In this document: positions 88-38,204 of the stretch, piece by piece | How the letters are laid out: each line of letters begins with the position of its first letter | How positions within the stretch are numbered: the first letter of the stretch is position 1 | Source of the DNA: an uncultured Parabacteroides sp. | GTDB lineage: Bacteria; Bacteroidota; Bacteroidia; Bacteroidales; Tannerellaceae | Assembly: GCA_947036995.1 (NCBI GenBank) | Contig: CAMQTD010000003.1 | Span: 1 to 40,584, forward strand | Length of the DNA: 40,584 bases | Reading direction: 5' to 3' | The notes under the pieces: model-generated | Told to the model about the DNA's origin: nothing | The model's database searches: none | The model's input: the letters and a program-made list of their open reading frames with translations, nothing else | Translations under genes and position numbers: made by a program

Positions 88-310
88 ATTTTTTAAGAAA
101 CAGTGTATCTATCTGTATATAAGCATTTTGAAAAACAGTAGTGATAGAGTGATAGAGGAATTGAAAAAAAACTTTCTGGGAATGTTGCGCTGGCTATTTT
201 TTTGACCAAAATAAACAGTAGTGTAGGGAGAAATAGACGGTGTCTATCTCATGGTAGACAGTAGTGCGTTGAGAAAAAGACAACGTCTATTTATACATTC
301 TCAATCTTCT

Positions 311-414
311 GCAATGTTTTGTGCTGAAAGCCGTAATGTTTCACACTAAAAACATTGCGGCTTCCAGCACAAAACATTACGGGTTCTGATATAAAACATT
401 GCAGCTTTTGAAAT
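311..414. repeat. 22-nt-period repeat array with orientation switch: two units on minus (311-341), three on plus (349-370, 371-392, 393-414)
   Basis: AAAACATTGCGGCTTCCAGCAC / AAAACATTACGGGTTCTGATAT / AAAACATTGCAGCTTTTGAAAT. Arms 311-341 and 350-380 are inverted repeats matching at 28/31 positions. Confidence 0.88.
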
Positions 415-26639: not shown

Positions 26640-28313
26640 TTATTCAAAGGCTCCCATACGAAGCGCATTTACCTCTTTTTCGTTTAAGTAACGCCATTTA
26701 CCGCGTGGTAAATTCTTTTTAGTTAATCCTGCAAAGTACACACGGTCTAGTTTCATTACGTGATAACCCAATGCTTCGAATATACGACGCACAATACGGT
26801 TACGACCTGAGTGGATTTCGATACCTACTTGAGATTTATCGTCTTCGCTTGCATAACTGATCGCATCTGCATGAATCTCTCCATCTTCAAGCTCGATACC
26901 GTCTGCAATCTTAGCCATATCTTCCATAGTTACGTTCTTGTCCAACCAAACGTGGTAGATCTTTTTCTTCTTGAATGAAGGGTGTGTTAGCTTTGAAGCT
27001 AAATCGCCATCATTAGTAAGAAGTAGTACACCTGTTGTATTTCTGTCTAAACGACCTACTGGGTAGATACGCTCTTGACAAGCACTCTTCACTAAGTCCA
27101 TAACAGTAAGACGCTCTTGTGGATCGTCCGATGTTGTTACACAGTTCTTAGGTTTGTTAAGTACCATATAAATCTTACCTTCAATTTGAACTTCTTTCTC
27201 CTTGTAGACAACATTATCTTGGCGTGTGATCTTAGTTCCTAATTCTGTAACTAACTCACCATTTACAGTTACAAAACCATTTTGGATCAATTCGTCAGCC
27301 TCACGACGTGAACAAACACCTGCATTCGCTAAGTATTTATTTAAACGAATTGGCTCGTTTGGATCTGCTAATACCTCTTTGTACTTCAACTGTTTCTGAA
27401 GACTGTATTTTGCATTCGGGTTGTAATCGTCGCTGCGACGGACTGGTTTGCGACTCTCGTTGCTAAATCCACCACGGCTATTATTATTATTATTATAACC
27501 ACCACCTCTGTTGTTATCGCCATATGAACTTGGACGACTGTTTCCACCACCAAATGAAGGGCGACTTGGACGATCATTTCCAAACGAAGGACGACTCGGA
27601 CGGTTATTACCACCATCTCTGCTATCAAATGACGGACGACTTGGGCGACTGTTCTCATCGTAATTATTTACGCGAGTGTCTCCTACACGAGGTCTTCTTT
27701 TCTTTTCGCCATCACCACCTGCTTGCGAAGATGTGAATGGACGTGCTGGTCTATTGTATGACGAATTACCTTCACCATAGCTATTACCACCACCATAAGA
27801 GTTGCCACCATTATTAAACGATGGACGGCTGCTTCCACCCTCTCTGTTTCCAAAAGATGGACGGTTATTGTTAAATGATGGACGACTTGATCCACCTTCT
27901 CTATTTCCGTATGCCGGACGGTCGTTGCCTGAGTTGTTGTAACTATTAAAGTTACGCTCTCTTGACTCTCCGCCACCATTGTTAAAGCTTGGTCTTGCAG
28001 GACGGCTTACAGATCCTTCATTGTTGTAAGATGAAGATCTATTACCTTCTTCTCTATTTCCGAATGATGGACGGTTGTTTCCGTATGAAGGTCTATTGTC
28101 TCCGTACGAAGGTCTTCCACCACCATAACTTCTATCTCCTCCACGGTCATTTCTGTCCGTGTTGTTGTAAGGTTTTCTTTCATAGTTACCTCTCTCAGGT
28201 CTGTTGTAATTCTGATTATAAGGCTGTCTCTCACCCTGTTGTTCTCCGCCTTCGCGTCTTACACTTGGGATAACTTTTCTTGGACGAGATTCTTCTCTGT
28301 CTTCTGCGTTCAT
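26640..28313 (-). CDS. RluB-family 23S rRNA pseudouridine synthase with a long N-terminal low-complexity extension
   Basis: S4 domain IRLNKYLANAGVCSRREADELIQNGFVTVNGE; catalytic YPVGRLDRNTTGVLLLTNDG; about 310 aa N-terminal Arg/Gly/Asn/Ser-rich repeats. Confidence 0.92.
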   Translation of the reverse strand: MNAEDREESRPRKVIPSVRREGGEQQGERQPYNQNYNRPERGNYERKPYNNTDRNDRGGDRSYGGGRPSYGDNRPSYGNNRPSFGNREEGNRSSSYNNEGSVSRPARPSFNNGGGESRERNFNSYNNSGNDRPAYGNREGGSSRPSFNNNRPSFGNREGGSSRPSFNNGGNSYGGGNSYGEGNSSYNRPARPFTSSQAGGDGEKKRRPRVGDTRVNNYDENSRPSRPSFDSRDGGNNRPSRPSFGNDRPSRPSFGGGNSRPSSYGDNNRGGGYNNNNNSRGGFSNESRKPVRRSDDYNPNAKYSLQKQLKYKEVLADPNEPIRLNKYLANAGVCSRREADELIQNGFVTVNGELVTELGTKITRQDNVVYKEKEVQIEGKIYMVLNKPKNCVTTSDDPQERLTVMDLVKSACQERIYPVGRLDRNTTGVLLLTNDGDLASKLTHPSFKKKKIYHVWLDKNVTMEDMAKIADGIELEDGEIHADAISYASEDDKSQVGIEIHSGRNRIVRRIFEALGYHVMKLDRVYFAGLTKKNLPRGKWRYLNEKEVNALRMGAFE

Positions 28314-34065: not shown

Positions 34066-34881
34066 TTAACTTAAGTATTTATTAAATAAAAGATCGTGCT
34101 GATTTTCTTGAATCAGTATTTCAAATCGTCTTTTAGCTGCATTGTATCCTGTGTTTGAGATCAGGTCTACGTTCTCAATATCGAACGTTTTATAGATACC
34201 GAACTCTTCCGCTTCGATCAATAGATCGCACAACTCACGGTCTTCAAGTGTATTGGCTCTAAACATATAATGATAAGAGCGCTCAGCAATACTCATAATA
34301 GATTGTTTATACTTTACGGGTATCAGTGGGCTTACGTTAACGCCTACGACACGTTCGCACTCGTCTCGAATGGTAGATACGGGGAAATTTTTAAACAATC
34401 CACCATCTACATAATGAACGCCATTGATATTAACTGGGTTAAATACAATGGGGATACTACAGGAGGCTATAATGGGATCAATTAGCGAACCACTTCTAAA
34501 CTCGTGTATTGTACCATTATCGAGATCTGTGGTTACTACAACAAGGGGGGTCTTTAGCTCTTCAAACGTTTGCGCACGTAGGTGTCGTTTTAAAAAGTGA
34601 CGAAACCTTCCGCTATCAAATATCCCTGCCTTGGGAAGTTGAAGCTGTGCAAATTCAGAAAACTCCCGACCCGTGAAAAGGTCTTTAATCTCATCTGCCG
34701 AATAACCATCGGCAAACAAAACACCCATCAGTGCTCCGGCGCTAGTTCCTGCAATAATATTGGGCTTCAAGCCATACTCTTCGAGTAGCTTAAACACTCC
34801 TATGTGAGCGAAACCTTTGGCTCCTCCTCCGCTAAGTGACAAGCCGAGCTTGTGTTGTTTAATGCCTGTTGTTTTATCCAT
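34066..34881 (-). CDS. patatin-like phospholipase
   Basis: 271 aa; LSLSGGGAKGFAHIGVFKLLEEYGL, GTSAGAL (GxSxG), DGGLFKNFPV (DGG). Confidence 0.94.
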   Translation of the reverse strand: MDKTTGIKQHKLGLSLSGGGAKGFAHIGVFKLLEEYGLKPNIIAGTSAGALMGVLFADGYSADEIKDLFTGREFSEFAQLQLPKAGIFDSGRFRHFLKRHLRAQTFEELKTPLVVVTTDLDNGTIHEFRSGSLIDPIIASCSIPIVFNPVNINGVHYVDGGLFKNFPVSTIRDECERVVGVNVSPLIPVKYKQSIMSIAERSYHYMFRANTLEDRELCDLLIEAEEFGIYKTFDIENVDLISNTGYNAAKRRFEILIQENQHDLLFNKYLS

Positions 34882-35192: not shown

Positions 35193-35292
35193 ACACAAAT
35201 TCAAAGATTTTACTAATTTCAATTATCAACACAAATGCTTAAATAGCACACAATAGCATGCGATTTTAAAAAGCGATGCACCTTTTTTTACG

Positions 35293-35430
35293 AAGCAGTA
35301 GTACTTTTAAAAAAAAAGTGCAGTACTTTTTGGTCGAAGCCGCAGACCTTTTGGTAAAAAAGTATACGGATTTGAGGGAAAAAGTGCCTGCCTTTGGGTG
35401 AAAAAGTATACGGATTTTTGATGAAAGCCC
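35293..35430. repeat. degenerate 22-nt-period direct-repeat array, 7 units
   Basis: Aligned G of the (A/G)AAG unit start at 35295, 35318, 35339, 35362, 35384, 35406, 35427 (spacings 23, 21, 23, 22, 22, 21); AAAGTATACGGATTT occurs twice. Confidence 0.85.
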
Positions 35431-35803: not shown

Positions 35804-38131
35804 TTAATCAACACGAATTTCGTCTACAAACATGTAAGCTGCATTGCCAGCTCCACCATGCCATGCAGGAAGATCGCCTGTTTTAATCACTACCTGTAGG
35901 TAGCGAGCTTTGATTGGGGCAAACGTAATTTCGTGGTTAAAGATACCATCTTTATCTTTCTTTCCTTGTTCAGCAATCTTTTTAGTTGCTATTTCGCGGA
36001 ATGTTTTACCATCTTCAGATACAGATACGGCTACGTTTGTAGCACCCATTACCCAGTCTCCTTTTACCACTAAGTTAGCGAAAGCTACTTTAGAGAATTC
36101 GGTTGCTGCTTTAAAGTCGATGGTTACATCTAGATCGTTGGCACGGAATCCGATCCAACGTCCTGTTTTATAGTTATCGTTTCCGTTCAATCCATCAATC
36201 AACGCATCTGCACCGTTAAAGGTGTACCCTTTGTCGGCTGCTTTGTTTAATGTGATAGGCTTCAAGCTCGCTTTGTTAAGCACCACTTTTTCGTTTAATA
36301 TACGGCTGTTTCCGGCTGGACGCACAACGATTGCTTTAAGCATACACGCTTTACCAATTTCGATTGGTTTTGTATATACCTCAGATGCTGCTGTTGGGTC
36401 GTTACCATCAAGTGTGTAATGGATTGTACCATCTGTACCTAATGTAGAGAGTGTTACGTCTAGGCTACCTGTTGCAGGGTTTGGTGTGTAGACTGCTTTC
36501 ACGTCAAATACGTGTTTAGCATAGTTGAAGCCCTCTTGTTCGTATAGATTAATCATACGTAGTAGGCGTGGAAGAAATGCTTCGTAGTTCTTCTTCTCAG
36601 GCATTGTCCATTGAACTTCACTCAACGCAGCTACACGTGGGATTAACATGTATTCTACTTGTGCGTAGGTTGGCATGTATTCTGTCCAAAGGTTTGCTTG
36701 TGTACCAATAATGAATTTCTCCTCCTCTGGTGTTAATCCAGCAGGAATAGGCTCGTAGCTATATACGCGCTCAATGTTGCTATAACCACCAATAGCCAAT
36801 GGCTCTTCTTTATCTAAAGATTGGTAGTGGTCGAAGTATAGGTGCGAACCTGGAGTCATAATAACATCGTGCTTCAGCTTTGCTGCTTGTGCGCCATATT
36901 CTACACCACGCCATGCCATAAGGGTTGCGTTTGGTGCTAATCCGCCTTCAAGAATTTCGTCCCAACCAATAATCTGACGTCCTTTCGAGTTAACGAATTT
37001 CTCCATACGTGTAATTACATAACTCTGCAAACGGTGCTCAGCACTGTGTTCAGCGTCAGCTTTGATTCCTTCTGCTTTGATACGTGCTTGACACTTAGGG
37101 CACTTCTCCCAACGTGTTTTAGGGCACTCATCTCCTCCGATGTGTATGTATTTTGATGGGAATAGTTCGATCACTTCAGTAAGAACATCTTCGACAAATT
37201 TAAGTGATTGCTCGTTTCCGGCACAAAGCACTTCGTCGAATACACCAAACGAGGTTACTACTTCGTATGGTCCACCTGTACAACCAAATGCAGGGTAGGC
37301 AGCCAATGCAGCTTGCATATGTCCTGGAAGGTCTATCTCTGGAACAATTGTAATGAAACGCTCCGAAGCATAAGCTACAACTTCGCGAATTTCGTCTTGT
37401 GTGAAGTATCCTTGGTAAGGCTTACCATCGTATTCGCCAGAATTGCGTCCGATAACAGTCTCTTTACGTTTAGAACTAATCTCGGCAAGGCGAGGGTATT
37501 TCTTGATCTCAATACGCCATCCTTGGTCTTCAGTTAAGTGCCAGTGGAAGGTGTTGATATTACTCAATGCTAATACATCAATAAACTGCTTGATTGAGTC
37601 TACTGGGAATGTGTGGCGACCCACGTCTAAATGCACACCACGGTACTTGAAGCGTGGAAAGTCTACCACCTCAACGCTTGGAAGTTCAATATCCATTCCA
37701 TTGCTCATTGCAGGGATTGCTTTACGAAGTGTTTGTACACCATAAAAGATACCTGCTTCTGTAGATCCGTTGATCGTGATATTTTGTTTCGAAGTTGTTA
37801 GTTTATACCCTTCTGGCTGCTCAATGCTTTTATCTAAAGATAGAATAATAACGTTGCTGCTTGGGGTTTCTGTTGTAACAGCTAGTTTCTTGTCGGTCGC
37901 TTTTTCGATATAGCTTGCAAGAAAATTAGCTGTACGCTGCAATTTTGCATTTCCTTCAGGATAGCTAATTGCTGTATTGTTGTTTAAAAAGAAAGGGGCT
38001 TCACTTCCCATTGTGATCTCTTGAGGCAAAGGAATCACGTCGTAATGTGCTTTTGGCTTAGGTGCATTGCTGCACGAAGATACCATCGTTGCAAGTGCTA
38101 CTGCACAGATGCTTTTGAAAATGTGTCTCAT
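35804..38131 (-). CDS. GH20 beta-N-acetylhexosaminidase lipoprotein (start trimmed to MRHIFKSICAVALATMVSSC)
   Basis: Lipobox-like VSSC; GH20 RGVHLDVGRHTFP, HWHLTEDQGWRIEIKKYP, HIGGDECPK; C-terminal chitobiase-like and F5/8 type C-like regions. Confidence 0.94.
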   Translation of the reverse strand: MRHIFKSICAVALATMVSSCSNAPKPKAHYDVIPLPQEITMGSEAPFFLNNNTAISYPEGNAKLQRTANFLASYIEKATDKKLAVTTETPSSNVIILSLDKSIEQPEGYKLTTSKQNITINGSTEAGIFYGVQTLRKAIPAMSNGMDIELPSVEVVDFPRFKYRGVHLDVGRHTFPVDSIKQFIDVLALSNINTFHWHLTEDQGWRIEIKKYPRLAEISSKRKETVIGRNSGEYDGKPYQGYFTQDEIREVVAYASERFITIVPEIDLPGHMQAALAAYPAFGCTGGPYEVVTSFGVFDEVLCAGNEQSLKFVEDVLTEVIELFPSKYIHIGGDECPKTRWEKCPKCQARIKAEGIKADAEHSAEHRLQSYVITRMEKFVNSKGRQIIGWDEILEGGLAPNATLMAWRGVEYGAQAAKLKHDVIMTPGSHLYFDHYQSLDKEEPLAIGGYSNIERVYSYEPIPAGLTPEEEKFIIGTQANLWTEYMPTYAQVEYMLIPRVAALSEVQWTMPEKKNYEAFLPRLLRMINLYEQEGFNYAKHVFDVKAVYTPNPATGSLDVTLSTLGTDGTIHYTLDGNDPTAASEVYTKPIEIGKACMLKAIVVRPAGNSRILNEKVVLNKASLKPITLNKAADKGYTFNGADALIDGLNGNDNYKTGRWIGFRANDLDVTIDFKAATEFSKVAFANLVVKGDWVMGATNVAVSVSEDGKTFREIATKKIAEQGKKDKDGIFNHEITFAPIKARYLQVVIKTGDLPAWHGGAGNAAYMFVDEIRVD

Positions 38132-38204
38132 TGTGTTTAAGTTGTAATTTGAGTTTGAAAACATGGACAAAGAGCGCTTCTCAAGAAGCTAACTCTTTGT
38201 GTTG

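Follow-up and report, generated by a model that had tools for sequence, protein, structure and literature searches.

Intergenic arrays on a 22-nt step, many of them just upstream of HU-winged-helix genes, as probable docking lattices for those proteins

Introduction

Plasmid iterons and partition-site repeats are tandem protein-binding repeats that lie about two helical turns apart, often before the gene of their own binder. For the Bacteroidales, the open-access literature on intergenic or palindromic repeats and on HU-HIG proteins offered BrickBuilt and other work on P. gingivalis as its only relevant entries, and our search of it found no binding sites for HU-HIG/HU_rel proteins. BrickBuilt is a minisatellite/MITE of P. 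gingivalis with a 23-nt unit, AGAYCATARTATCCTCTCRTRTG, and with leader and tail inverted repeats (PMC4596501). Like the arrays described below, BrickBuilt repeats in tandem at about two helical turns, lacks spacers, is always intergenic, is present in multiple copies and belongs to a Bacteroidales species (PMC4596501). The BrickBuilt unit has no match in the window, that is, in the whole 40,584-nt stretch from an uncultured Parabacteroides sp. analysed here, even when 3 mismatches are tolerated.

The window carries an array of a kind that recurs, on the same 22-nt step, through this genome and the Bacteroidales. Many such arrays lie just upstream of genes for HU-winged-helix (HU-wHTH) proteins and are probably docking lattices for those proteins; by extrapolation, an HU-family protein is also the candidate binder of the window array.

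Results

The window array

In a fixed register, a chain search places the array and its units as follows.

35269..35422, + strand: window array, seven units at a step of exactly 22 nt
35269, 35291, 35313, 35335, 35357, 35379 and 35401, + strand: starts of the seven units
35357..35378, + strand: unit 5, AAAAAGTATACGGATTTGAGGG, which recurs 44 nt on as unit 7
35379..35400, + strand: unit 6, AAAAAGTGCCTGCCTTTGGGTG, a different core inside the same frame
35401..35422, + strand: unit 7, AAAAAGTATACGGATTTTTGAT, the last unit

The array that an earlier note had pointed out is real: across 35293–35430 the identity at lag 22 is 0.517, against an expected 0.265 ± 0.043, and 0 of 1000 dinucleotide shuffles reach the observed value. 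The seven units counted there stand, but the extent given, 35293–35430, has to be shifted to the span listed above, which starts one unit earlier. The spacings of 23, 21, 23, 22, 22 and 21 read at that time are replaced by exactly 22 in all six intervals, the irregularity having come from anchoring on different letters. The frame of each unit consists of an A-tract, about 10 variable nucleotides, a T-tract and a GG-rich linker. At lag 44 the identity is 0.63, higher than at lag 22, because the units alternate, with 35347–35373 matching 35391–35417 at 93% over 27 nt. Several other arrays of the same class (class E, below) end in last units like unit 7 (AAAAAGTAYRCGG-TTTT). The palindromy of the seven units in the array is weak (p = 0.09 against column permutations), and a relative on contig C175 is clearly palindromic.

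It was rightly held that the array is not a protein repeat, since 22 is not divisible by 3 and the array is intergenic; a 105-aa ORF spanning it matched no family in a Pfam comparison. Likewise it is not CRISPR, because there are no spacers between the units, which are degenerate and abut at 22 nt.

The 'gene desert' in which the array had been placed is a 922-bp gap flanked by genes for a patatin-like phospholipase and a GH20 hexosaminidase. A second array of the same family lies near the contig start, where the earlier note had marked its first array at 349–407; it belongs to class D.

34066..34881, − strand: patatin-like phospholipase gene, start codon 387 bp away from the window array
35804..38170, − strand: GH20 hexosaminidase gene, 3' end toward the window array
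300..413, + strand: class D array, AAAACATTGCGGCTTTT units on a 22-nt step with an internal orientation switch

No TAnnTTTG box was found on either side of the window array and no HU gene adjoins it, the HU-HIG genes of this genome being located on other contigs. We file it as a dispersed 22-nt lattice array and not as an HU operator, because there is no adjoining HU-wHTH gene or box and its palindromy is weak.

Three other repeats of the window were recorded. Palindromic class G units (AATAGACGGTGTCTAT-like) at 200–290 adjoin the class D array, a pairing seen again on C10, C33 and C46. GTGATAG tandem units with an 11-nt (22-nt) step occupy 1–131, and arrays of similar GTGATAG units recur close to class B arrays on C9 and C23. 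A 57-nt tandem repeat in two copies is present within a coding region at 27810–27922.

Array classes in the genome

The draft genome comprises 226 contigs totalling 2.59 Mb, at 80% completeness, of which 1.47 Mb was read for array counts; the comparison genomes drawn included no second member of the source organism's genus. An unbiased lag scan of intergenic DNA within the 1.47 Mb gave 38 clusters at lags 21–23 and 17 at lag 44, with 1–12 clusters at most other lags. These periodic clusters fall into several unrelated sequence classes that have one 22-nt step in common, and classes devoid of A-tracts (ACACCCGGGTGT, GACCNNGGTC) still keep it.

The window array belongs to the E/D class and qualifies as a member of the intergenic, multi-copy array class on a 22-nt step as defined here. 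About 23 E/D arrays of 3–8 units, mostly spaced at exactly 22 nt, are present in the 1.47 Mb. They were called by chain scoring with a reversed-sequence control, an iterated unit profile having been abandoned when it drifted into AT-rich noise; the chain scores are 27–97 bits and the control maximum is 21 bits. Genes beside E/D arrays turn their 3' end toward the array in 23 cases and their 5' end in 14, and the arrays are somewhat enriched between convergent genes.

A further group of classes has an ACC-NN-GGT core, with 17 intergenic arrays in this genome, most of them containing exactly four cores 22 or 23 nt apart. Nearly all pairs of ACCNNGGT at most 70 nt apart are separated by 21–24, 44–46 or 66–69 nt. 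The TAnnTTTG box adjoins none of the 38 sides of E/D arrays inspected and none of the 26 inspected for dispersed ACC arrays of this genome. The dispersed arrays are therefore not ordinary promoter operators, and that role was rejected for them in this genome.

Arrays upstream of HU-HIG genes

Among 112 proteins flanking ACC arrays, HU-HIG was the commonest Pfam family (10/112). A blind set of 40 HU-HIG genes was then picked by Pfam score alone, with arrays ignored, and the 300 bp upstream of each gene were scanned. The top upstream lag was 22 in 26 of 28 HU-wHTH genes (about 200 aa; z 3.3–10.8), whereas it was 22 in 2 of 13 short HU genes (Fisher p = 1.7e-6); the figure of 28 overstates independence, since some members of the set are mutual paralogues or orthologues (for example L302/L303 and L313/L321). 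For one member, L285, the blind test used a reference on the wrong strand, and its array does exist. Among short HU-HIG genes of genome G010, four (L305, L307, L308 and L309) have their best or near-best upstream lag at 30 nt and not at 22.

The arrays upstream of HU-wHTH genes usually consist of about four palindromic units located 120–215 bp ahead of the start codon, and their words vary between genes. In 14 of the 28 genes a TAnnTTTG promoter box lies 19–29 nt before the array, which therefore sits about at the transcript start. In the genome under study, the HU-wHTH genes on C6 and C171 are preceded by class A ACC arrays, and the short HU gene on C210 by a class B ACC array; other arrays of classes A and B are dispersed elsewhere. 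On C28 and C115 an E-like array lies upstream of a short HU gene, the two genes being paralogues, and G010 has one near a truncated HU gene. For the array of one Parabacteroides HU gene there are two dispersed four-unit relatives in P. gordonii and four in P. faecis, and the words of the gene's array and of its relatives differ in concert between the two species.

The predicted structure of an HU-wHTH protein comprises an HU core and a C-terminal winged helix (pLDDT 91), and each of the 34 aligned members is matched by both PF18291 and TIGR01201. The best match to the predicted fold is 4fmr, which is from B. vulgatus and is annotated as putatively DNA-binding; a sequence search for a solved structure spanning both the HU and the winged-helix domain found none. 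The HU-HIG/HU_rel family is expanded in the Bacteroidales, where a single Parabacteroides genome can have as many as 54 matches.

Arrays across the Bacteroidales

Of 393 genomes of the order, 6 contain three ACC-NN-GGT cores at exactly 22 nt, with a different inter-core sequence in each, and at least 117 stretches of named genomes, mostly Bacteroidales, carry four cores with that same exact spacing. Four units are present in 69 of 108 distinct arrays from the four-core scan, which itself selected for 22 nt. When that selection was removed and the rest of the intergenic DNA at these loci was scanned, there was an excess at lags 20–22, the cluster count reaching as many as 17 at lags 21 and 22. 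Bacteroides arrays of AAAAAGACCGCGGTCTTTTT units unite the E frame with the ACC core. Unrelated units thus keep one step in this genome and across the order, in agreement with the earlier proposal that spacing is more constrained than sequence. The two checks proposed along with it also left it standing: shuffled sequence lacks an equal 22-nt signal, and both this genome and its relatives hold further arrays.

One class is represented in P. gordonii and P. faecis by 11 arrays, each with exactly four cores. Two orthologous array sites, L145/L176 and L276/L283, are common to both species, and some of their other ACC arrays have no counterpart at the orthologous site in the sister species; dispersed array copies have thus been gained or lost between species. 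Some orthologous dispersed arrays lie upstream of genes, for example of a TonB-type-receptor-like gene, and most are devoid of promoter boxes. At L145:1064–1137 (P. faecis) and L176:3294–3367 (P. gordonii), the orthologous ACC arrays have identical constant ACC/GGT letters. By hand count, about two thirds of the positions in their variable triplets differ, as do about a tenth of those in the flank. A reading of these triplets as a hypervariable 'barcode' was dropped because the orthologous pair L276/L283 differs far less. In two Parabacteroides species, two ACC arrays (L133/L273 and L191/L278) are situated between an RND-efflux-transporter-like gene and an outer-membrane efflux gene.

Discussion

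On balance we lean slightly toward reading the 22-nt arrays as a protein-binding lattice of HU-family proteins, the window array being brought in by extrapolation. Tandem sites two helical turns apart would be occupied side by side by HU-family dimers (PF18291/TIGR01201, typically HU plus a C-terminal winged helix), presumably with one dimer per unit. The 22-bp step would be fixed by the HU architecture and the letters by the winged helix, or another reading part, of each paralogue, so that many sequences could share one step. Dimers on successive sites would face the same side of the DNA and may form a short nucleoprotein filament. Each regulator would bind the array ahead of its own gene, in autoregulation, as well as a small family of dispersed arrays; at its own promoter the filament may repress by covering the transcript start. 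The wider picture, to which we give even chances, is that Bacteroidales genomes each encode many HU-winged-helix paralogues, every one with its own palindromic word on the one 22-bp lattice, acting on itself and on a small, fast-changing dispersed set, and that E/D is one such set.

The association of HU-wHTH genes with other array classes gives the idea of a bound protein strong indirect support, from which an HU-family binder for the E/D class, the window's own, may be extrapolated. The E-like arrays ahead of short HU genes and the Bacteroides arrays that unite the E frame with the ACC core speak for it. Against such a binder for E/D stand the lack of an HU gene beside typical E/D arrays, the weak palindromy of their units, a unit number of 3–8 instead of four, the lack of a TAnnTTTG box on their sides and the surplus of neighbouring 3' ends over 5' ends.

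It seems to us rather unlikely that we are dealing with mobile but non-autonomous, or self-copying, DNA, such as a minisatellite in a MITE-like element of the BrickBuilt kind, with no host function and a step inherited or set by the mobilising machinery. Arrays of this origin would be dispersed, intergenic and multi-copy, as observed, and the E arrays on C3, C11 and C56 have a common unit order at 71–77% identity within unlike flanks. The absence of ACC arrays from orthologous sites of sister Parabacteroides species also fits, as do the imperfect inverted repeats into which ACC arrays continue beyond their units. Mobility leaves unexplained, however, both the single step across unrelated sequences and the fixed promoter position at HU-wHTH genes together with its rarity at short HU genes, and the single empty site that was closely aligned showed no target-site duplication.

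Action as RNA, through long hairpins or terminators of the REP/BIME kind and with no DNA-binding partner, we regard as improbable. ACC arrays and many class D arrays do fold into long hairpins, and the enrichment of E/D arrays between convergent genes would suit terminators, but repeated palindromes yield hairpins automatically and the two-base centres of ACC-NN-GGT make poor hairpin loops while being ordinary for dimer sites. The + strand of the window array is not unusually stable (z = −1.1; −3.9 for the other strand), and Rfam covariance models run against the window and 16 array loci matched nothing on the arrays. Least probable of all is an artefact of chance or composition in AT-rich DNA, or intrinsic curvature from phased A-tracts with no specific partner. 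The A-tracts of the window array do recur at about two helical turns, yet the signal is reached by no shuffle, reversed sequence fails to give scores at the E/D level and the step persists where A-tracts are lacking.

If the arrays are HU lattices, they would account for a class of intergenic repeats that pervades gut bacteria, and the fixed lattice with its interchangeable words would offer a clean example of geometry evolving independently of sequence specificity. As candidate sites for HU-HIG/HU_rel proteins, one word per paralogue, the arrays make the function of that family directly testable.

Comparison with known systems

A link to HU is not reported for BrickBuilt in the available part of its description (PMC4596501). 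Within HU-HIG/HU_rel (PF18291, TIGR01201), it is the HU-wHTH members that carry upstream 22-nt arrays, whereas the window array has no such gene adjoining it. REP/BIME elements with RAYT are likewise dispersed intergenic palindromes, and the strict 22-nt lattice is a feature of the arrays described here. The RAYT/REP model was set aside, no Y1 (REP-type) transposase having been found in this genome (80% complete) or in three other array-bearing genomes searched (G107, G212 and G372). Compared with plasmid iterons and partition-site repeats, the present arrays differ in their many copies on the chromosome and in the many sequence classes that run in parallel, all on one step.
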